A stretch of 64,000 nt of DNA from an uncultured Alphaproteobacteria bacterium (GTDB lineage: Bacteria; Pseudomonadota; Alphaproteobacteria; Rhizobiales; Aestuariivirgaceae): contig CALMZX010000114.1 of NCBI GenBank assembly GCA_937870685.1, positions 1 to 64,000 on the forward strand, written 5' to 3'. Below the pieces are notes generated by a model, which ran no database searches, was not told the DNA's origin, and saw nothing but the letters and a program-made list of their open reading frames with translations. The position numbers and the translations under genes are program-made. Positions 25,938 to 36,891 of the stretch are shown in pieces; the stretch's first letter is position 1, and each line of letters starts with the position of its first letter.

Positions 25938-26984
25938 CTAAAGGTCTGCTGAATCGGGATGCAGTGCCGCGGTAAACACCGAAAGCGCCTCCCGTGTGGC
26001 CTTCACGTCATGGACCCGCAGCATGTGCGCGCCCGCCATGGCCGCCTGCAAAGCCCCGCCCACCGATCCGTTGACGCGGTGTCCGGCCGTCTTTTCGCCC
26101 GTCAGGGCCCCGACAAAGCCCTTGCGGGACAGGCCGACCAGCAGCGGCAGGCCGAGCCCGTGGAAAAGCGTTAACCCTGCCATCAGATCGAGATTCTGCC
26201 GGAATGTCTTGCCGAAACCGATACCGGGATCAATGGCGATGCAGGAGCGGGGAATGCCCGCCGCCTCCGCCGCCGCCACGCGCGCCTCCAGCCCGTCATA
26301 AACGTCCAGCAGAACGTCCTCATAGCGCGGCTGCAACTGCATGGTCTTGGGCTCCCCTTGGGCATGCATCAGCACGATAGGCACTCCGGCCTTGGCAACC
26401 ACGCCAGCGCTCTTCGGGTCATGCCCCAGCGCTGAAACATCATTGACGATGGTTGCTCCCGCCGCCAGCGCCTCCGTCATCACCCCGGCCTTGCGCGTGT
26501 CAGCGGAGACGATCCCGGTCTTGGCCAGCGCCGCGATCACCGGAATGATGCGGCGCAGTTCTTCCGCGTCATCCACAGAATCCGAGCCGGGCCGCGTGGA
26601 TTCGCCCCCCACATCCAGAATGTCAGCCCCTTCCGCCGCCAGTTGCTCGCCATGGGCAATGGCCGCGGCTGTGGAGGAGAGCTTGCCACCATCGGAGAAA
26701 CTGTCCGGCGTGACATTGACGATGCCCATGAGTCGCGGCGCGGTCATGTCAAGCGGACCAAAGCCGGGCCGCGCCGCCGAGAGGCGTTCCAGCGCTGCGG
26801 AATCATCCACACCTGATATGCGCTGCATGTCCCGTTCGATGATGCCATCGGCCCGCGTGATCACGTCGACGTGGGTAAAGGCCACATGGGCCATCCCTGC
26901 CAGTGGCAGGGCATCGCCATCGCGCACCATGCGCCCGGCATCAGCACCGAAAACAAGGCCCGTGGGGCGGTGGTAGGTTTTCAT
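25938..26984 (-). CDS. folP: Dihydropteroate synthase
   Basis: This 348-residue enzyme joins p-aminobenzoate to the pterin pyrophosphate in folate synthesis and is the sulfonamide target family. The core starts at LMGIVNVTPDSFSDGG and has DVGGESTRPGS, IVNDVSAL, IAIDPGIGFGKT and LLVGLSRKGF. About 85 residues precede the core, longer than in E. coli FolP; N-terminal extensions are common in alphaproteobacteria. It lies between ftsH and glmM, separated from ftsH by a repeat element. Confidence 0.95.
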   Translation of the reverse strand: MKTYHRPTGLVFGADAGRMVRDGDALPLAGMAHVAFTHVDVITRADGIIERDMQRISGVDDSAALERLSAARPGFGPLDMTAPRLMGIVNVTPDSFSDGGKLSSTAAAIAHGEQLAAEGADILDVGGESTRPGSDSVDDAEELRRIIPVIAALAKTGIVSADTRKAGVMTEALAAGATIVNDVSALGHDPKSAGVVAKAGVPIVLMHAQGEPKTMQLQPRYEDVLLDVYDGLEARVAAAEAAGIPRSCIAIDPGIGFGKTFRQNLDLMAGLTLFHGLGLPLLVGLSRKGFVGALTGEKTAGHRVNGSVGGALQAAMAGAHMLRVHDVKATREALSVFTAALHPDSADL

Positions 26985-27007
26985 GGATGTCTTCCACTCC
27001 AGAGAAT

Positions 27008-27126
27008 CTCCCTCCCCCTTGTGGGGAGGGCCGGGGTGGGGGTCGGACGGTCTTGGCAGTTGTGGGGCAACCAGACTGCAGGGTGCAGCGCAACCCCCAC
27101 CCTAGCCCTCCCCACAAGGGAGAGGG
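27008..27126. repeat. REP-like inverted repeat pair between folP and ftsH
   Basis: Left arm 27008-27043 contains CCTCCCCCTTGTGGGGAGGG followed by a GGGGTGGGGGT tract. Right arm 27093-27126 is its near-complement, with CCCTCCCCACAAGGGAGAGG preceded by ACCCCCACCC. Together they could form a large hairpin between the two genes. A single arm occurs at 17611-17633, and a weaker relative (CCCTCCC...GGGAGAGGG) at about 44883-44914. This is a bacterial interspersed repeat, not a CRISPR. Confidence 0.75.
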
Positions 27127-27136
27127 AATTGCGATG

Positions 27137-29050
27137 TCATTGCGGCTGCGGTTCCGGTTCGAGCCCGCCCCGGCCGCCGCGCTTGGCGCCGGCCTTTGGC
27201 ACGCTTGTGCCACCCGTGCCGGAACGCTTGCCCGGCTTCTCGTCGCGGTCGATCGTCTCGCCCTTGAGAACGCGCGCCACCTCGTCGCCCGAGAGCGTTT
27301 CGTATTCCAGCAGCGCCTTGGCCAGCGTGTGCAGGTCTTCGCGCTTCTTCTTGAGGATGAGCTTGGCCTGGGCCTCGCCCTCGTGGATCAGGCGGCGCAC
27401 TTCCTCGTCGATGATCTGCGCAGTGCCTTCCGACACGTTCTTGCTCTGCGTGACGCTGTGGCCGAGGAACACTTCCTGTTCGTTGGCTGAATAGCGCACG
27501 CGGCCAAGTTTTTCGCTCATGCCCCACTCGGTGATCATGGCACGTGACAGCTGAGTCGCCATCTGGATGTCGCCCATGGCACCGTTGGTCACGTTCTTGT
27601 CGCCACCGAGGATGAGTTCGGCCTCGCGTCCGCCGAAGAGCACGGCAAGGCGCGCCTCGCACCACTCGCGGGTGCGGCTGTGACGGTCGCCTTCCGGCAG
27701 GTTCATGGTAACACCCAGCGCCCGGCCACGCGGAATGATCGTGACCTTGTGCAGCGGATCGTATTTCACGTTGAGGCCGACGATGGCATGGCCTGCCTCA
27801 TGATAGGCGGTGTTGCGGCGTTCGTCATCGCTCATCACCATGGACTTGCGCTCGGCCCCCATCATCACCTTGTCCTTGGCATCTTCGAATTCGGACTGGG
27901 TGATCATGCGCTTGTTGCGGCGGGCAGCCAGAAGGGCGGCCTCGTTGCACAGGTTGGCGAGATCGGCGCCCGAGAAACCGGGCGTGCCGCGGGCCAGCAC
28001 CTTGGGATCAATGTCCGGAGCCAGCGGCTTGTCCTTCATGTGGACACGGAGAATCTGCTCGCGGCCCTTCACGTCCGGATTGCCGACCGTGATCTGACGG
28101 TCGAAGCGGCCGGGGCGAAGCAGCGCCGGGTCCAGCACGTCAGGACGGTTGGTGGCGGCGATGATGATCACGCCTTCATTGGCCTCGAAACCATCCATCT
28201 CCACAAGCAGCTGGTTCAGCGTCTGCTCGCGCTCGTCGTTGCCGCCGCCAAGGCCCGCACCACGATGGCGGCCCACGGCGTCAATTTCATCGATGAAGAC
28301 AATGCAGGGCGCATTCTTCTTGGCCTGCTCGAACATGTCACGCACGCGGCTCGCACCGACGCCCACGAACATTTCCACGAAGTCCGACCCGGAGATGGTG
28401 AAGAACGGCACGTTGGCTTCGCCCGCGATGGCGCGCGCCAGCAGCGTCTTGCCGGTGCCCGGAGGACCGACGAGCAGCGCGCCGCGCGGAATCTTGCCGC
28501 CAAGCCGCTGGAACTTGTGCGGGTCCTTGAGGAAGTCCACGATCTCCACAACGTCGTCCTTGGCCTCATCGACGCCAGCGACGTCGGAGAAGGTGACACG
28601 GCCCTGCTTCTCGGTGAGCAGCTTGGCGCGACTCTTGCCGAAGCCCATGGCCTTGCCGGAACCCGCCTGCATCTGGCGGATGAAGAAAATCCACACGCCC
28701 AGCATCAGCAGCATGGGGAAGGCATAGACCAGTGCCGTCGAGAGGAAGGATTCAGATTGCGGCGGACGGAACTCGGCAGCCACGTTCTTCTCGCGGATGG
28801 TCTTGAGGAAGTCCTCCGACACCGGCGCATAAGTGGTGAAGGTGCGGCCGTCGGATGTCTTGGCAACGACGTCACCGTTCATCGATGCGGTGATGCTGCT
28901 GATCTCGCCATTGTTGATCTTGGCGAGGAACTCCGAATAGGTGATCTCGCTGCTGCTGGTGCGCATGCTCTGGCCCTGGAACAGGCTGAAGAGGGCAAAC
29001 AGCAGGAGGGCAATGACAATCCAAACGGCGAAACTGCGGAACTGGTTCAC
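27137..29050 (-). CDS. ftsH: ATP-dependent zinc metalloprotease FtsH
   Basis: This 637-residue membrane-anchored protease degrades damaged membrane proteins and regulators such as LpxC. Two N-terminal helices ([19 protein letters not shown] and [16 protein letters not shown]) flank a periplasmic part. The AAA domain has Walker A GPPGTGKT, Walker [10 protein letters not shown] and the SRH arginines. The zinc site is HEAGH. The GTG at 29050 ([10 protein letters not shown]) follows TTGAGGA and is preferred over a longer frame lacking a ribosome site. Confidence 0.97.
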
Positions 29051-29170: not shown

Positions 29171-30394
29171 CTAAAGGTGAAATCGTTCACCAAGGGTGAC
29201 AGCGAACGGTCCGCCGCGCTCGAAATGCGGAAAAAACGGGCCTTGCCGCGCCATTTTGATCACCGGCAAACCCGCGAGGACAAAGTCCGGAAGGCGGGTG
29301 TCCTGCACCGGGCGCAATTGTCCGGCCACCTGCACGGTGGCACCCCCGGGACCGGCGATCCGGAAGCGGTCATCCCACAGCACCTCGCCGGAGGGCGGAA
29401 TGACGACGGCATCAGGTGCAATCCGCCCCGGTTCCCGCCCGATCACAATCTCCCGCGCACGGCCAGCCACCAGTGCACCGCCAAGGCTGCGGCGGAACAC
29501 CGCCGTGCCTGCCGTCACATCAGAAAGCCGCTGCATATCGGCCCGCTCCGGCCTGACACCGGAGCCACAGAGCATGATGGCCCGGCCAAGCACAGCGGCG
29601 CGGGTTTCCGGCAATTCGTCATGGAGGGCCGCTCGCGCCAGGGTGATGAATCCTGCGGGGTGCAGGTGTGCATGCGCCCTGAGCCAGGCTTGCGTCTGCG
29701 CCTCAATGGTTCGCGTTTCCGCCTGTGCCGCAAGCGCTTCAGCCCCGAGGGCTGCAATGTCCCGCTGCCGCAGGCTGCGCCGGATGCGGACCCGTTCAAA
29801 GTCCGTGTTCACGTTGCTGGGATCATCCAGCCAACCCTGCCCGATGGACTTGAGATGGGCCCGCAAGGCGCAACGCGTGACCCCGAGCAAAGGACGCAAG
29901 ACGCGCACGCCCCGCCACTCTGTCTCCGGCCAGATGCCGGCAAGGCTCGCGGCACTGCTGGTCCGGCGCTTGCGCATCACGACGGTTTCAGCCTGATCAT
30001 TCAGTGTGTGGGCAGTGAGCAAGGCCCCAGCCCCATGCGCGCGGCACCAATCGGTCATGAGATCATAGCGTGCCGACCGCGCCTTCGCCTGAATGCCGGT
30101 GGCGGGCTTCGCGCCGTCCCACGTGAGGAGGGTGTGGGGAATGTCGAGTGCCGCGCACCAGCGCCCCACCTGTTCCGCCTCGGCGCGCGAACCGCCGCGC
30201 AGGCCGTGGTCCACCGTGAGCGCCACAAGGCCCTGCCCGCGCCACGCGGCCAGCAGGCGCAAGAGCGCCATGGAGTCGGAACCGCCCGACACCGCAACGG
30301 CGATGCAAGGCACGTCATTCAGATCATGAAAGAGATGGCCGACCTCAAGGCCCGCATCAGTGCAGGACAGTGCCTCTGCCTCAGCAGCCGGCAC
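29171..30394 (-). CDS. tilS: tRNA(Ile)-lysidine synthase
   Basis: This 407-residue N-type ATP pyrophosphatase converts C34 of tRNA-Ile(CAU) to lysidine so that AUA is read as Ile. The PP-loop is AVSGGSDSMALL, with LTVDHGLRGGS and LLTAHTLNDQAETVVM following. The start is GTG at 30394, overlapping the cpoB end by 14 bp. Position between cpoB and ftsH is conserved in Rhizobiales. Confidence 0.93.
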   Translation of the reverse strand: MPAAEAEALSCTDAGLEVGHLFHDLNDVPCIAVAVSGGSDSMALLRLLAAWRGQGLVALTVDHGLRGGSRAEAEQVGRWCAALDIPHTLLTWDGAKPATGIQAKARSARYDLMTDWCRAHGAGALLTAHTLNDQAETVVMRKRRTSSAASLAGIWPETEWRGVRVLRPLLGVTRCALRAHLKSIGQGWLDDPSNVNTDFERVRIRRSLRQRDIAALGAEALAAQAETRTIEAQTQAWLRAHAHLHPAGFITLARAALHDELPETRAAVLGRAIMLCGSGVRPERADMQRLSDVTAGTAVFRRSLGGALVAGRAREIVIGREPGRIAPDAVVIPPSGEVLWDDRFRIAGPGGATVQVAGQLRPVQDTRLPDFVLAGLPVIKMARQGPFFPHFERGGPFAVTLGERFHL

Positions 30395-31331
30395 GCTTGT
30401 ATTCAGCCTGGGCCTTCTTCTTGGCCTCGACGGCGCGCGGGAACTCCGTTCCGACGGAGTTGAGCGCGGCGCAGGCCTGTTCCTTCTGGCCCATCTTGTT
30501 GAGGGCCATGCCGAGCTTCAACAGGCTGTCAGGCGCGCGGCGGCTCTTCGGGTAGGTCTTGTAGGCCTGCAGGAAATTCTGCGCGGCCTGCTTGGAATCG
30601 CCCTGCACGTAGAAAGTCTCGCCGAGCCAGTACTGGGCGCTGCCCGCCAGCGAGTGGTCCGGGTACTTCGTCAGGAAGCTGCGGAAACCTGCTTCCGCCT
30701 CGCCGAACTGGCGGCGGAGCAAAGCCTCGTTGGCCGACTTGTAAAGCTCATCCGGCGTTTCGGCCGGTTGCAGCGACACCTGCTCGATGCCATCCTGCTG
30801 CTGCACGCCATCGGTCGTGACAGGCTGTCCGGCCTGGGCAGGCTGGGTGGCCTGGGCCGTCTGGGTTTCGCCTGCGTCCGGCACCAGAACCTGGCCTTCA
30901 AACGTGCCGTCTTCGGCACCCGCCTTCTTGAACGGAACCTGCGCGGGGGCGACTTCCATCGTGCCACTTTCCGTGCCGAGAACTTCCGCATTGAGTGATT
31001 TGGGTTTGGAGGCCGGCGTATCCTCGATCACTTCAATGCCATCGGCGGCCGTTCCGTCCTGGACCGCAGGGGTTTCGGCAAACTGCTTCTGCACCGGTTT
31101 CTTGAGGGCGGGCGGCGGCGTCATCTCGCCTGCGTCACCCTGCTTCTGGCCCAGCTGCCTTTGCAGCTGGTTCACGGTGAAGGTGAGTTCCTCAACCTGC
31201 CCGGTGAGGGCGCGGATGCGCTCCTCCATCTGGAAAATGCGGGTGGCGATGTCCTGCGCGCCTGCGGGCACCGAGGCGGGCAAGGCGGCTGACGCGAGCA
31301 GGACGGCGGCAAACAGACTGCGCTTGAACAT
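30381..31331 (-). CDS. cpoB: Tol-Pal system protein CpoB (YbgF)
   Basis: This 316-residue periplasmic protein coordinates Tol-Pal with peptidoglycan synthesis. It has a signal peptide (MFKRSLFAAVLLASAALPAS), an N-terminal coiled coil (FQMEERIRALTGQVEELTFT), a Thr/Gln/Ala-rich linker, and C-terminal TPR repeats (PDELYKSANEALLRRQFGEA, LAGSAQYWLGETFYVQGD). The start at 31331 is chosen for the signal peptide. It follows the pal genes and precedes tilS. Confidence 0.93.
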   Translation of the reverse strand: MFKRSLFAAVLLASAALPASVPAGAQDIATRIFQMEERIRALTGQVEELTFTVNQLQRQLGQKQGDAGEMTPPPALKKPVQKQFAETPAVQDGTAADGIEVIEDTPASKPKSLNAEVLGTESGTMEVAPAQVPFKKAGAEDGTFEGQVLVPDAGETQTAQATQPAQAGQPVTTDGVQQQDGIEQVSLQPAETPDELYKSANEALLRRQFGEAEAGFRSFLTKYPDHSLAGSAQYWLGETFYVQGDSKQAAQNFLQAYKTYPKSRRAPDSLLKLGMALNKMGQKEQACAALNSVGTEFPRAVEAKKKAQAEYKRAGC

Positions 31332-31418: not shown

Positions 31419-31925
31419 TCAGTTAGTGCCGCCGGTGATCACCGTCACGGCGCGGCGGTTCTGCGACCAGCACTCTTCGGCGTCACACAGCGAGGCCGGA
31501 CGCTCCTTGCCATAGGCGATGGAGGAAATGCGGTTGCCGGGCACGCCCTGCTGGATCAGGTAGTTGCGAGACGCCGTGGCGCGGCGGGCCGACAGCGAGA
31601 TGTTGTATTCGCGGGTGCCGCGCTCGTCGGCATGGCCTTCCACCTGCACGGTGACATTCGGGTACTGCAGCAGCCATGCCGCCTGCTTGGACAGCGTGTC
31701 CTGGGCTTCCGGCGTCAGCGTCACCGTATCGACGATGAAGTAGATGCGGTCGCCCACATTGGTTTCGAAATCGGCCTTGGAGCCGGGCGTCGCCTGACCC
31801 ATGCCGATGCCACCGGCTCCGGGGCCGGCTTCCAGGTCAGGCGTGTTCTTCTTGGAACAGGCGGCGAGCGCCAGAAAACAGGTCAACAGGGCTGCCGTCT
31901 TGAAACCGGCCGATCGGGTCATCAT
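31419..31925 (-). CDS. pal: Peptidoglycan-associated lipoprotein, copy 1
   Basis: This 168-residue lipoprotein tethers the outer membrane to peptidoglycan and binds TolB. The lipobox is LALAACSKK; the OmpA-like domain has VTVQVEGHADERGTREYN, LSARRATASRNYL and the tail CDAEECWSQNRRAVTV. It is one of two tandem copies; the two share the whole OmpA-like core. This copy lies just before cpoB. A terminator lies upstream of it, so it may have its own promoter. Confidence 0.93.
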   Translation of the reverse strand: MMTRSAGFKTAALLTCFLALAACSKKNTPDLEAGPGAGGIGMGQATPGSKADFETNVGDRIYFIVDTVTLTPEAQDTLSKQAAWLLQYPNVTVQVEGHADERGTREYNISLSARRATASRNYLIQQGVPGNRISSIAYGKERPASLCDAEECWSQNRRAVTVITGGTN

Positions 31926-31992
31926 CAATCCCACTCCTAAAAGGTCCCCTTCCGAAGGCCGTCCCGGGCCCCGAAGTCTGGGTCTCTGCATG

Positions 31993-32011
31993 AAAAGCCC
32001 TCCGGGAGGGC
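31993..32011 (-). terminator. Intrinsic terminator between the two pal genes
   Basis: On the minus strand GCCCTCCCGGAGGGC is followed by TTTT, a compact GC hairpin with a T-run, about 100 bp after the stop of copy 2. It would separate or attenuate transcription of copy 1 and cpoB from the upstream tol genes. Confidence 0.75.
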
Positions 32012-32114
32012 CCTTTGCAGCAGGCCATTGCGCAAATTGCCACCGCACGCAAGTGTGGTGGCAACTGAGTTAACAAATTGTCACAGGGCCATGGAGAGAC
32101 CCTCCCGGGGAGAC

Positions 32115-32645
32115 TCAGCTCGTCCGGGCTCCGCCCGTGATAACCGTGACAGCACGGCGATTTTGTGACCAACACTCTTCCGCGTCACACAAAGAGGCCG
32201 GACGCTCCTTGCCGTAGGCGATCGAAGAGATGCGGCTGGAAGCGACGCCTTCGCTGATCAGGAAATTGCGCACCGCCGTCGCTCTGCGTGCCGAAAGCGA
32301 CAGGTTGTACTCGCGGGTGCCACGCTCGTCGGCATGGCCTTCGATCTGGATCTGCACGTCGGCATACTGGTTCAGCCAGCTGGCCTGCTTGCGCAGCGCG
32401 TCCTTGCCCTCGGCGGTGAGCGTCACCTGGTCCATCTGGAAGAAAACGCGGTCGCCGATGGCGGTCTGGAACTCCTCGACCGAGCCGGGTGAAGCGCTGC
32501 CAGCGGCGAGTTCCGTGCCCGTGCCACTGGCACCATTGAGGCCGGCGTTCAGGCTGTTGGGGTTCTTCTTGGAGCAGGCCGCAAGCGAAATGGCACAGGC
32601 CAATGCAAGGGCAATCCGGAAACCGGTCGTCTTCGAGTTCATCAT
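32115..32645 (-). CDS. Peptidoglycan-associated lipoprotein, copy 2
   Basis: This 176-residue second Pal lipoprotein lies directly after tolB. It has the lipobox ISLAACSKK, then a Gly/Ser/Thr-rich linker and the OmpA-like domain (VQIQIEGHADERGTREYN, LSARRATAVRNFL, CDAEECWSQNRRAVTV). ATG codons at 32645 and 32642 are both possible, with AGGTGG upstream. Its position after tolB is the canonical pal position. The near-identity with copy 1 shows a local duplication; the linker and N-terminus differ most. Confidence 0.93.
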   Translation of the reverse strand: MMNSKTTGFRIALALACAISLAACSKKNPNSLNAGLNGASGTGTELAAGSASPGSVEEFQTAIGDRVFFQMDQVTLTAEGKDALRKQASWLNQYADVQIQIEGHADERGTREYNLSLSARRATAVRNFLISEGVASSRISSIAYGKERPASLCDAEECWSQNRRAVTVITGGARTS

Positions 32646-32759
32646 GATCAAGGTCCACCTAATTCAAAGTCTGGAGCCCCCCGGCCCCAACCATCCTTGG
32701 GACCGTAATGACCTGATAACCTGAAGACCGGCTTACGGAACGTGGTTAAGGGAAGGTGA

Positions 32760-34085
32760 TCAATTCAGCCGCGGCGACCAGGCGGGATCGCTGGAGAAGC
32801 CCGGTGTCGGCACCTTCTGTTCGTTGTAGCCGGTGACATCCACCGAATAGAGTTGCGGGCCGCCATTCTCGCCGCCGGACTCGCGGAAGAACATGATGAC
32901 GCGGCTGTTCGGTGCCCAGGTAGGGCCTTCGTTGTGGTAGCCCTCGGTGAGCACGCGTTCGCCCGAACCATCCGGCTTCATCACACCGATGGCAAATTTT
33001 CCGCCCGCGTTCTTGGTGAAGGCAATCCATTTGCCGTCCGGCGACCAGACCGGCGTGGAATAGCGGCCCTTGCCGAAGGAAATGCGCTGCGCCTCGCCAC
33101 CGCCTGCCCCCATCACATAAATCTGCTGGTTGCCGCCACGGTCGGACTCGAAAGCAAGGGCCGATCCATCAGGAGCATATGACGGGGCCGTGTTGATCGC
33201 CGCCACATTGGTGACCTGACGCAGCTGCCGCGACTGCAGGTTCATCTCGAACAGGTTGGAGTTCACCATGTCCTCGGACTGCAGCGACATGATGATGCGC
33301 CCGCCATCCGGCGAGAAGCGCGGCGCGAAACTCATGTTGGGAAAATCGCCGACGATTTCCTTCTGGTTCGTATCGATGTTGTAGATGAAGACGCGCGGTA
33401 CACCGGTGCCGAAGGAGAGGAACGTGACTTCATTCGCCGTGGGTGAAAAACGCGGCGTGAGCAGCAGGTCGCCCTGCACCGGAAGCGTGCGCGGATTGAA
33501 GCCGTCCTGGTCCATGATGGCGAGCTTCTTCACCCGCTGCGACTTGGGGCCGGATTCGTCAATGAACACCACGCGCGTGTCAAAGTAGCCTTCAAAACCC
33601 GTGAGCGCCTTGTAGATCTGGTCGGAGATGCGGTGCGCCAAGCGCCGCGCCACCTTGGGCGACGCCGCAAGCGACTGCGAGGCCAGCATCTGCCCGGAGT
33701 TCACGTCGAAGAGCTTGAAGGCCACGCGCAGCTTGCCGCCATCCATGTAGGCCTGGCCCGTGACCAGCGCCTTGGCCTGCACCTGCCGCCAGGATTCAAG
33801 ATTGGGCTGGGCCTCGAAATCGGAAATGCGCTCGATGAAGCTTTCCGGCGGCAGCGGGTTGAAATAGCCCGAGCGTCCGAGGTTGTTGGCGATGACGCCG
33901 GAGACGGTGGCCGCCGCATCCTCCGAACCGGAGCCGGCAAGGAACGGTGCAATGGCGATGGGCAGCGGATTGATCTTGCCGCCCGAGACATCCACATCCA
34001 GCGCCCAGGCAGGAACGGTCCCCGCCAGCGCCACGAATGATGCAGCGCCCGTGGCCGCCAGAAGGTTACGTCGATTGAGCTTCAT
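32760..34085 (-). CDS. tolB: Tol-Pal system protein TolB
   Basis: This 441-residue periplasmic protein binds Pal and TolA. An N-terminal domain is followed by WD40-like beta-propeller repeats (FSPDGGRIIMSLQS, YAPDGSALAFESDRGG, WSPDGKWIAFTKNAGG, WAPNSRVIMFF). The signal MKLNRRNLLAATGAAS contains a twin arginine before the hydrophobic stretch, suggesting possible Tat export; E. coli TolB uses Sec. The start at 34085 is set by the signal peptide. Confidence 0.95.
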   Translation of the reverse strand: MKLNRRNLLAATGAASFVALAGTVPAWALDVDVSGGKINPLPIAIAPFLAGSGSEDAAATVSGVIANNLGRSGYFNPLPPESFIERISDFEAQPNLESWRQVQAKALVTGQAYMDGGKLRVAFKLFDVNSGQMLASQSLAASPKVARRLAHRISDQIYKALTGFEGYFDTRVVFIDESGPKSQRVKKLAIMDQDGFNPRTLPVQGDLLLTPRFSPTANEVTFLSFGTGVPRVFIYNIDTNQKEIVGDFPNMSFAPRFSPDGGRIIMSLQSEDMVNSNLFEMNLQSRQLRQVTNVAAINTAPSYAPDGSALAFESDRGGNQQIYVMGAGGGEAQRISFGKGRYSTPVWSPDGKWIAFTKNAGGKFAIGVMKPDGSGERVLTEGYHNEGPTWAPNSRVIMFFRESGGENGGPQLYSVDVTGYNEQKVPTPGFSSDPAWSPRLN

Positions 34086-34129
34086 CCCATTCCACCCAGA
34101 TTGCAAAGGGGCCCCCACATTTCAAACAC

Positions 34130-35107
34130 TCAGCCGGCCATCATGTCCGGCGTGAAATTCACGGTAATCTCCTGCCACATATCATAGCGGTCGGCAGGCA
34201 GGAAATCATAAGGCGCGCACTCCATGACAGCTGAAACGGCCGATTGCGCCGTGGCATCCGACAGCGTGTCGCCACCGCCGGAAATCACGATGGGCAGTCC
34301 TTCCACCGACTTGTCCTTGCGCAGGTTGAAGCGCACCTTGACGGTGATCGAGGCCTCGCGAGCCCCCGGCGGCACGGTCCAGCATTCCGACAGGCGGCTG
34401 CGCAGCGCATCAATGAGTGTGGCAGCGATGGCCGCGTCATCGCCCTGTGCCTCGTTTTCGCCCTGCACCGGGGAACCGTCAGTCTCGCCGGATTTCTTGG
34501 GCGCGGTGCGTTCGTCGTTTTCCTTGTTGAGAAGGGCATCCAAAGCGGCAACGTCGAGTTTCTGCTTTTTCTTCTTTTCGGCCTCGGCCTTCTTCTTCGC
34601 CTCGTCAGCCTTTTTCTTTTTCTCGGCTTCGGCCTTCTTCTTCTCTTCCGCTTCCTTCTTCTTTTCCTCGGCAGCCTTCTTTTCGGCGAGCGCCGCTTCC
34701 TCGGCCACCTTCTTTTCTTCCTCAAGCTTCTGCTCTTCGAGCAGTTCCTTCAGCGGATCAGAATCAAGCGGCTTGTCCTCGGCCTTCTTGGGCTCCGGCT
34801 TCTTGACGGGTTCAGGTTCGGGCTCCGGCTCCTTGGGCTTGGCCGCGAGCACTTCCTCTTCCGCCACCTTCGGTGCGGGCTTCACCTGCTTGGTCACTTC
34901 AGTTTTTTGCGCCGCCGACTTTTCCGGCGTCGGCACGGCTTCCTTCGTCGTCGCCATGACCTTGGTCACGTCACCGATGTTGGAGATATCGACCTGCACC
35001 GCGTTCTGCGGCTCCACCTTGAAGGGCTCTGGCGACGGCAAGCCCACAAGCACCGCCAGAAGCAGCGCCGCATGCACAACAGCAGAGCTGGTGACGCTGC
35101 CCTTCAT
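34130..35107 (-). CDS. tolA: Tol-Pal system protein TolA
   Basis: This 325-residue inner-membrane protein spans the periplasm. The N-terminal helix is SSAVVHAALLLAVLVGLP. A very Lys/Glu/Ala-rich helical domain (residues ~100-200, KKKEAEEKKKAEAEKKKK type) precedes a C-terminal globular domain (LSECWTVPPGA, VKVRFNLRKDKSVEGLP). Its ATG overlaps the tolR stop by 4 bp. It works with TolQ/TolR to constrict the outer membrane at division. Confidence 0.93.
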   Translation of the reverse strand: MKGSVTSSAVVHAALLLAVLVGLPSPEPFKVEPQNAVQVDISNIGDVTKVMATTKEAVPTPEKSAAQKTEVTKQVKPAPKVAEEEVLAAKPKEPEPEPEPVKKPEPKKAEDKPLDSDPLKELLEEQKLEEEKKVAEEAALAEKKAAEEKKKEAEEKKKAEAEKKKKADEAKKKAEAEKKKKQKLDVAALDALLNKENDERTAPKKSGETDGSPVQGENEAQGDDAAIAATLIDALRSRLSECWTVPPGAREASITVKVRFNLRKDKSVEGLPIVISGGGDTLSDATAQSAVSAVMECAPYDFLPADRYDMWQEITVNFTPDMMAG

Positions 35108-35565
35108 GGCGCGACAGGTTTCTCCGTCTGCAGGGTGACAAGGCCGATCTTCTTGTAGCCGGCGGAGTTGAGCACACCCATCACCTCCATGACGGCACCA
35201 TAGTCCGTCGAGGTATCGGCGCGCACGAAGAGCTGTTCCTCATTGCCGTTCTTGACGATGGCCTGAAGCTTGGCGGCCAGTTCGCCGAGCGGAATCTGGG
35301 TTTCCTGCAGGTAGACGCTGCGGTCCTTCTGCACCGTGATGTAGAGCGGGTCCTTCGGTGCATCCATGGACTTGGCTTCCGTCTTGGGAAGCTCGACCGG
35401 CACGCCGACGGTCATGAGGGGGGCTGCCACCATGAAGACGATGAGCAGCACCAACATCACGTCAACGAGCGGCGTGACGTTGATCTCGCTGATGGCGCCA
35501 TGGCGCGAGCCGCGGCGTCCGCGCCTCGCATTGGCAGCCTTGGCACCTCCGACCGATGCACCCAT
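35104..35565 (-). CDS. tolR: Tol-Pal system protein TolR
   Basis: This 153-residue ExbD/TolR protein has an N-terminal cytosolic tail (ISEINVTPLVDVMLVLLIVFMV), where the Asp in VDVML is the proton-channel residue, and a periplasmic domain. It lies 3 bp after tolQ and overlaps tolA. Confidence 0.95.
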   Translation of the reverse strand: MGASVGGAKAANARRGRRGSRHGAISEINVTPLVDVMLVLLIVFMVAAPLMTVGVPVELPKTEAKSMDAPKDPLYITVQKDRSVYLQETQIPLGELAAKLQAIVKNGNEEQLFVRADTSTDYGAVMEVMGVLNSAGYKKIGLVTLQTEKPVAP

Positions 35566-35568
35566 GGA

Positions 35569-36276
35569 TCAGGACCTTTCGTCGAGCTGGCGCGAGATGA
35601 TGGCGGAGAATTCGTCGGCGAAATTCTCCAGCCGCGACTGCACCTTGGCTGCGTCGGCAGAGTACATATTGTAGAAGATTGTCGCCGGTATGGCAGCCAC
35701 AAGACCGATGGCCGTGGCGAACAGGGCTTCGGCAATGCCGGGAGCCACAACGGCAAGATTGGTCTGGCCGGAATTGGCGATGCCCTGGAACGAGGTCATG
35801 ATGCCCCACACCGTGCCGAACAGGCCGATGAAGGGTGCGGCCGAGCCGATGGTGGCGAGGAAGAGGAGATTGGATTCCAGTTCGCTCATTTCCTTCTGAA
35901 TGGCAACATCCATGACCTTCTCAATGCGCTTCTGCACGCCGGCAAAGCCTGCGCGCATGGCGGCACCCTGGCTCTGCTTCCACTCCTGCATGGCGGCAAT
36001 GAAGATGGAGGCCATGCCGTTGGTGGCGCGGCCACCGAGCCCGCGATAGAGATCCTCCAGCGACTGCCCGGACCAGAACGACTGCTCGAAGCGGTCATTG
36101 GCGGCATGCTCGCGGCGGAAAGTGAAGTACTTGTTGAAAATGATGGCCCAGCACCACACCGAGGCAAGGCCCAGGCCCAGCATGACGAAGAACACCGGCC
36201 ACGAGGCCTGCATGACCAGATGCCAGAGCGAGATTTCGGCGGTCTGCGTCACCGCGGTTTCAGTGATGGTTTCCAT
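35569..36276 (-). CDS. tolQ: Tol-Pal system protein TolQ
   Basis: This 235-residue MotA/TolQ/ExbB channel protein has a first helix FVMLGLGLASVWCWAIIF and the conserved pair in FLATIGSAAPFIGLFGTVWGIMTSF and GIAEALFATAIGLVAAIPATIFYN. With TolR it harvests proton flow to energise TolA. The start METITETAVTQ at 36276 is chosen because family homology begins there. It follows ybgC after a 186-bp gap that probably holds the tol promoter. Confidence 0.95.
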   Translation of the reverse strand: METITETAVTQTAEISLWHLVMQASWPVFFVMLGLGLASVWCWAIIFNKYFTFRREHAANDRFEQSFWSGQSLEDLYRGLGGRATNGMASIFIAAMQEWKQSQGAAMRAGFAGVQKRIEKVMDVAIQKEMSELESNLLFLATIGSAAPFIGLFGTVWGIMTSFQGIANSGQTNLAVVAPGIAEALFATAIGLVAAIPATIFYNMYSADAAKVQSRLENFADEFSAIISRQLDERS

Positions 36277-36462
36277 GTGATCCGTTGCGTCCCAAGTCGG
36301 CCCCTGTCCCGAAGGCGTCACGGCAGCCGCTCCCGCCTGCCTCAAACCGTCAAAATCTGTCGAAACTGCGGCCTTTTCCACAGATTCGGCAAACCGGCGG
36401 CGCACCGGCAGGGTTCCGGCGCTCGACCATCAGTGCTTGAATCACTTATGGTTAACAAAGGG

Positions 36463-36891
36463 TTAGGAAATGGCCTTGGCGAGCCTTTGAGCCATCTCCG
36501 GCGGCACCCGTTTGGGCCGCCCCCGGCCATCAATCAGCGCCACCGTCACATCGGCTGTGAACAGCACCTCTCCGCCACGCATCACCCGTTGGGCCAGTTC
36601 GAAGCGTGCACCCGCCATCTCGCCGCCGCACGTCTCCACGGTCAGCAGATCATCAAAACGCGCCGGCCGGAGGAAATCGCAAACCATGCGGCGGACCACA
36701 AACATGATGGGCTCGCCCGCAGCGAACAGGGCGTTCTGGTCAATGCCAGCCTCCCGCAGGAAATCCGAACGCGCCCGCTCCGCGAATTTCAGGTAGTTGG
36801 CGTGATAGACATTGCCGGAAAAATCCGTGTCCTCGTAATAGACGCGGACCTCCAGATAGTGGGTGCCGTTCCTGAAGTGGCCGCCGCTCAC
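36463..36891 (-). CDS. ybgC: Tol-Pal-associated acyl-CoA thioesterase YbgC
   Basis: This 142-residue hotdog-fold 4-hydroxybenzoyl-CoA-thioesterase-like protein has the catalytic motif [19 protein letters not shown]. YbgC proteins hydrolyse acyl-CoA or acyl-carrier esters and are regularly found at the head of tol-pal operons. Its start overlaps the ruvB stop by 4 bp, so it is coupled to the ruv operon. Confidence 0.93.

Follow-up and report, generated by a model that had tools for sequence, protein, structure and literature searches.

Why would a bacterium keep two Pal lipoproteins side by side in a single tol-pal cluster? Pal has two jobs, the tethering of the outer membrane and septal gathering through TolB, and a pair of Pals, one possibly tied to tolQRAB and the other to cpoB, may naturally separate both. 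Such a pair is carried by the 64,000-nucleotide stretch of DNA analysed here (the window), which comes from an uncultured member of the Aestuariivirgaceae, in the alphaproteobacterial order Rhizobiales. We followed up an earlier note on this DNA, made from the sequence alone, by comparing the locus with genomes of the same genus, family, order and class.

The minus strand of the window carries, in this order, ruvB, ybgC, tolQ, tolR, tolA, tolB, palA, palB, cpoB, tilS and ftsH, which makes a complete tol-pal cluster; the labels of ruvB, tilS and ftsH were taken from the sequence, without a family search. Family models identified ybgC (36463..36891, TIGR02799), tolQ (35569..36405, TIGR02796), tolA (34130..35107, TIGR02794, 72.4 bits), tolB (32760..34118, TIGR02800, 421 bits) and cpoB (ybgF; 30381..31331, TIGR02795), all on the minus strand. 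The tolR gene (35104..35565, minus strand) was assigned from its operon position together with a TIGR02801 score of 127.2 bits, just short of the 127.3 required; its product scores a little higher with two ExbD models, which stay further below their own cut-offs. The true start of tolQ is probably downstream of the GTG used, as the HMM match starts at residue 59. Outside the cluster, between ftsH and its downstream gene, a G+C-rich stretch (26941-27213) looked inverted-repeat-like when ORF translations were inspected by eye, and resembles the type often met as intergenic repeats.

Between tolB and cpoB, the earlier note had seen two tandem pal genes, each encoding a lipobox and an OmpA-like domain, and two intact reading frames do stand there. 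The TolB-proximal palA (32115..32642, minus strand) encodes 175 amino acids, with an alternative start possible 3 bases upstream, and the CpoB-proximal palB (31419..31925, minus strand) encodes 168 amino acids and is, as judged by signal peptide and tail, orthologous to the lone pal gene found in relatives. Both pass the cut-off of the Pal model TIGR02802 (132.9 bits for palA and 131.3 for palB, cut-off 125.35) and have one Pfam OmpA domain each (80.0 and 78.8 bits, cut-off 27.2), and a signal peptide with a lipobox cysteine (LAAC-S) was read by eye in both, without a dedicated predictor. The two products are 65% identical, and the C-terminal stretch that the note had described as shared proved longer than first noted, with 33 identical residues (SSIAYGKERP...VITGG) encoded by DNA that differs at 16 of 99 bases. 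The solved structures nearest to the window Pals by sequence are Pal proteins, and Pal structures (1oap, 2hqs) were also the top PDB matches of a PalA model built on 11 sequences (mean pLDDT 67.5, pTM 0.59, residues 1-46 below 50). In other places, the window genome has five further, more remote OmpA-domain matches.

The pair is widespread among close relatives. Both copies were found in 21 of 37 genomes of g1, the genus of the window, in the one g29 genome and in all five g33 genomes, hence in 27 genomes of three genera (window genome included), and they sit between tolB and cpoB wherever a contig spans both. Some g1 pairs are on incomplete contigs: that of G024 starts inside palA, palB of G026 is split over two contigs, and the contig of G011 stops after palB. 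A single pal was found in 12 of the 37 g1 genomes (G003, G012-G016, G019, G020, G022, G027, G033 and G036), which offer ready comparisons for the species with a pair. On a second contig of G003, tolB is directly followed by the upstream region of its single pal; the contig of G015 ends right after pal, so that a further downstream copy is possible; and the single pal of G019 lies apart from tolB. In this last genome (locus L066), the ORFs upstream of pal resemble, by eye, a DNA cytosine methyltransferase and a Vsr-type nuclease, which would fit the insertion of a module at this place. G028 has tolB and then the start of a PalA-type gene (by eye), cut by the contig end, and the three remaining g1 genomes are G008 (neither tolB nor pal matched), G030 (contig ending at tolB) and G031 (pal interrupted where the contig ends). 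Within g26, two of six genomes carry a pair, three a single copy, and one is cut by a contig end. The remaining 20 genomes of the family gave one match in 17 cases and none in three, with some contigs ending near pal. The locus of G077 (L098) differs by a third Pal-like ORF between palA and palB, which shares 47-50% identity with the window Pals where they align, has an apparent signal peptide without lipobox cysteine and is perhaps a soluble periplasmic OmpA-domain protein.

At the scale of the order, the statement of the note that most Rhizobiales carry one copy was borne out. Among 249 sampled genomes, of which 238 are outside the window's family, just one of these 238 (G037) gave two Pal matches when the threshold was set at E 1e-28, which would miss weaker second copies, and eight gave none; the two matches of G037 are on different contigs. 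The same genome (L112) has, between pal and cpoB, an ORF that combines a repeat-bearing stretch (by eye) with an OmpA-like domain, without lipobox. In a sample of 192 genomes of the class, 14 besides the window's gave at least two Pal matches. The check for arrays covered the four whose listed matches are closely spaced, and all four revealed tandem arrays between tolB and cpoB (L140-L143), with two genes in G381 and in G472, three in G412, including one diverged copy, and four in G440. G381 and G472 belong to one family, and the four genomes represent three families of other orders. The second match was distant on the same contig in G338 and G448 and on a different contig in G358 and G407; its position was not listed for G335, G362, G363, G396, G441 and G455, which have at least two matches each. 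Outside the family, pal pairs are rare in the order; across the class, tandem expansion of pal recurs. Among the matches listed by a literature search, none dealt with Pal lipoprotein genes in tandem or in duplicate, which is no proof of absence, and the available excerpt of a study of tol-pal evolution (PMC12204202) makes no mention of them.

What could two Pals do differently? The note had suggested TolB binding, timing or surface linkage. Pal is reported to use the same residues for TolB and for peptidoglycan (PMC7391070), and in E. coli Pal R104 is described as contacting peptidoglycan and E102 as contacting TolB (PMC11559426). With residues numbered via chain 9rle_P, the R104-equivalent arginine (LSARR) is present in all 88 Pal copies examined in the family, and because it is kept in both window copies, peptidoglycan binding is expected of both. 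The E102 position is Ala in the same 88 copies, single ones and both window copies included; the TolB contact can therefore not be read from the E. coli residues, at this position PalA and PalB show no difference, and the residue does not serve to define Pal in this family. The idea of a different surface linkage found no support, the lipobox being of the same type in both copies, with Ser at +2. Since Lpp homologs are reported as absent from most Alphaproteobacteria (PMC10470522), Pal may bear more of the tethering load in this class.

A difference between the copies does appear at the very C-terminus. The window PalA ends in Arg-Thr-Ser (codons at 32118..32126, minus strand), which a comparison of tails among copies marks as PalA-specific: a [KR]TS end is found in 26 of 27 PalA copies of g1, g29 and g33, the exception being G021 (Asn-Ala-Ser), and in none of the 26 PalB and none of the 12 single copies of these genera. 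The Thr is encoded by ACG, ACC, ACA or ACT, the Ser by AGC, AGT, TCA, TCC, TCG or TCT, and all three stop codons are used; as this synonymous variation spans two Ser codon families, the tail appears to be kept as residues and not as DNA. On this codon evidence, the [KR]TS tail is conserved at the protein level and specific to PalA, and it constitutes the strongest sign that PalA is no spare. When columns with a total variation of at least 0.45 between copies were considered, two tail columns nearly separated PalA from PalB (0.96 and 1.00). Fixed differences in the OmpA domain were also sought and rejected, the top columns there reaching 0.60-0.80 and none fully separating the copies. Both genes are under purifying selection, with dN/dS ranging over 11 ortholog pairs from 0.014 to 0.18 for PalA and from 0.021 to 0.142 for PalB; PalA usually evolves faster, with the higher value in 9 of the 11 pairs, some of which share a genome. 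The two genes are paralogs lodged between tolB and cpoB, and the PalA tail is copy-specific in g1, g29 and g33.

The position of the two genes also raises the question of their transcription. In E. coli, the described units are ybgC-tolQRA and tolB-pal-cpoB (PMC11559426). For Rhodobacter sphaeroides, Caulobacter crescentus and other Alphaproteobacteria, tolB is reported within tolQRAB and pal-cpoB as a separate unit, and in R. sphaeroides tolQRAB, but not pal-cpoB, is described as a direct target of CenR (PMC9275681). As palA neighbours tolB and palB neighbours cpoB, the simplest reading is that palA may have joined tolQRAB while palB stayed with the pal-cpoB promoter. The difference in timing or expression proposed in the note fits these split units described elsewhere (PMC9275681), and for the window it may hold by analogy with them.

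The spacers offer traits on both sides of this split. Between palA and palB, a hairpin followed by UUUU (31993..32014, minus strand; -20.2 kcal/mol, z -3.2) is predicted, from its fold energy and the UUUU after the stem, to be a credible but weak terminator; the note had called a terminator here, and the hairpin fold and UUUU are indeed present, but a consensus scan that requires 5 T in 8 misses the site. Over the region, that scan returned 4 terminator-like sites against 3.5 expected by shuffling, and a sigma-70 scan found no promoter on the minus strand. A second hairpin (32037..32064, minus strand), a candidate terminator or leader, is conserved among nearby species, 5' of palB or of their single pal, in an alignment of eight spacers picked by eye, six from pairs and two from single-copy genomes; the fold of 32020-32090 has a z of -2.95. 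A crude hairpin filter, run without a control, flags the palA-palB spacer of 14 of the 20 g1 pairs with a spacer, of g29 and of all five g33 genomes, and is negative for the four beta genomes, G010 and G035; it flags single-copy spacers too.

Other elements were followed through the same spacers. Between tolB and palA, the window has a GGGG-loop hairpin (32671..32690, minus strand) whose fold is no better than that of shuffles (z -1.35), and G-loop hairpins stand 5' of palA in 15 of the 20 spacers from g1 and in all five from g33, not in g29. As a regulatory element repeated over the genome, this hairpin was rejected, with one exact match and one match with one mismatch in the genome. Upstream of palB lies a GTTAAC (32069..32074, minus strand) whose wider 16-base element is clear in g33, g29 and the g1 alpha group except G002, and has 4-8 mismatches in single-copy g1 genomes; in the window it is at chance level, and as a palB promoter there it was rejected (7 of 16 mismatches, shuffle mean 6.5). 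A third element, block 1 (GCCACAAATTCGCCGCGCT-like, 19 bases), stands upstream of the single pal in all 12 single-copy g1 genomes (at most 5 mismatches) and between palA and palB in all five g33 pairs (at most 3), and is missing from the g1 pairs (at least 7 mismatches in 21 of 21, two of these spacers being incomplete: G002, where the palB start was set too early, and G024, where the contig begins in palA), the palA-palB spacer of the window among them; g29 has 9 mismatches. As a control, the lowest of 60 shuffles per genome had 5-8 mismatches. The contrast between single and pair genomes amounts to 4 independent pairs (p 0.125) for a pattern chosen after looking at the data, and the apparent link of block 1 to copy number is a lead only. 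In favour of split transcription, we retain as traits the hairpin shared by 6 pair and 2 single genomes, the placement of block 1 and the window hairpin with its UUUU. Against it, the filter flags single-copy spacers and misses the beta group, predicted terminators in the window are at chance level with no sigma-70 promoter found on the minus strand, block 1 is missing there, and the GTTAAC element matches at chance level.

We tentatively favour, at slightly less than an even chance, an operon-coupled PalA beside a separately expressed PalB tether, both derived from an old duplication followed by losses of palA. The duplication would have placed palA upstream of the ancestral pal-cpoB promoter, making it the last gene of the tolQRAB unit, and palB would have stayed in the separate pal-cpoB unit. 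Both products would be outer-membrane lipoproteins binding peptidoglycan and mobilised by one TolB, with PalA synthesis tracking that of TolQRAB, and so division and envelope demand, and PalB acting as a bulk tether expressed on its own. Through its [KR]TS tail, PalA would gain a partner, a stability or a localisation not available to PalB. A bolder version, which we consider doubtful, would make PalA a distinct Tol-Pal component, encoded in the tolQRAB unit and with its tail read by a partner, that forms a division-coupled pool beside a constitutive PalB. If true, one TolB would serve both the division-coupled PalA pool and the constitutive PalB tether, and tandem pal expansion between tolB and cpoB would represent a recurrent way for Lpp-less Alphaproteobacteria to split tethering from septal constriction.

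The main competitor is a pure effect of dosage, in which two equal and interchangeable Pals simply supply more outer-membrane tether to bacteria that lack Lpp. It would explain the duplication itself equally well, and we hold it to be possible, at roughly one chance in three. The identical binding-face motifs of both copies and the 12 of 37 g1 genomes that show one copy are consistent with it, as are the reported absence of Lpp homologs in most Alphaproteobacteria (PMC10470522) and the presence of block 1 in all 12 single-copy g1 genomes but not in the g1 pairs, as if an extra gene and an extra promoter were alternatives. However, g33 carries both the second gene and block 1, and the block 1 contrast itself has the few independent pairs and the after-the-fact choice given above. 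Interchangeable copies would also not be expected to keep a PalA-only tail at the protein level over three genera, nor G-loop hairpins 5' of palA in most g1 and all g33 spacers.

In a quick tree of seven neighbour proteins, built without bootstrap and with half the columns or fewer in eight rows, g1, g29 and g33 form one clade of 40 genomes (SH-aLRT 100), and the g26 pairs fall outside it, so that the g26 pair is, according to this tree, a separate duplication event. The presence of the pair needs at least 7 changes over the 56 scored genomes and at least 4 over g1, g29 and g33. The single copies of g1 carry a PalB-type signal peptide, with Arg at column 55 (12 of 12), Phe at column 72 (12 of 12) and Ala at column 57 (10 of 12), residues found in 24, 24 and 25 of 25 PalB and in 9, 6 and 7 of 25 PalA; from these leaders, PalB is identified as the ancestral-type copy. 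The best reading is one tandem duplication before the split of g1, g29 and g33, with palA later lost in some.

The OmpA domain tells a less simple story. In its tree, PalA and PalB cluster by lineage and not by copy, and a single PalA clade is rejected (p-AU 0.0015 with all 26 rows, 0.014 with the 20 of g1), so that the argument for a single origin is borne by the tail, the position and the leader. Over 25 genomes, identity between PalA and PalB in this domain is 0.84 within a genome, 0.85 within a lineage and 0.78 between lineages, and signal-peptide identity stands at 0.49 in all three comparisons. This lineage pattern suggests that the domain was homogenised long ago within lineages, that it changed in parallel or that the duplications were separate; co-evolution with TolB could also produce it. 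Recent gene conversion was rejected for the window pair, its own PalB being only the 4th of 25 nearest to its PalA by bases and the 3rd of 25 at third positions, and identity within genomes being about that within lineages; conversion may have acted in the lineage stems. At third positions, the own PalB is the nearest to PalA in G011, G017, G021, G029 and G077.

Several independent tandem duplications in the g33, g29 and g1 lineages, in place of one followed by losses, would account for the lineage-wise domain tree and its rejection of one PalA clade; independent arrays are known in g26 and in the four genomes of other orders, and PalA signal peptides of different lineages share 0.42 identity, no closer than PalA to PalB. 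We judge this scenario unlikely, given that the [KR]TS tail is common to g1, g29 and g33, that the G-loop hairpin recurs 5' of palA in g1 and g33 (though not in g29), and that single-copy signal peptides match PalB and not PalA. Finally, an artefact of assembly, which the note had itself named as its refutation, or of recent duplication is refuted by the present data with near certainty: contigs do end inside pal in G024, G026, G028, G031 and G061, where a repeat may trouble assembly, but the window genes differ in one base out of about six over a stretch of identical residues, their OmpA-domain dS is 0.95, and both copies recur in more than half of the g1 genomes and in three genera.

Compared with known systems, the two proteins share with the Pal family (TIGR02802), as known from E. 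coli and Caulobacter, the lipobox, the linker, the OmpA-like domain, the tolB and cpoB neighbours and the R104 equivalent, and differ by the presence of two copies, the [KR]TS tail of PalA and the Ala at the E102 position. The gene order, tolQRAB and then pal-cpoB, is that reported for R. sphaeroides and C. crescentus (PMC9275681), in contrast to which an extra pal closes what may be the tolQRAB unit in the window. The arrays of G381, G472, G412 and G440 similarly place tandem Pal-like genes between tolB and cpoB, but their sequences are different and none of the ORFs read ends in [KR]TS. DalA, a divisome lipoprotein of Rhodobacterales, resembles PalA as a lineage-specific outer-membrane protein that works beside Pal, but is not described as a Pal duplicate in the available excerpt (PMC10470522). 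Set against these systems, the protein family found here is an ordinary one; what is uncommon is its tandem arrangement, which is old and has been maintained, and for which a division of labour between the two Pals is a specific and testable prediction.
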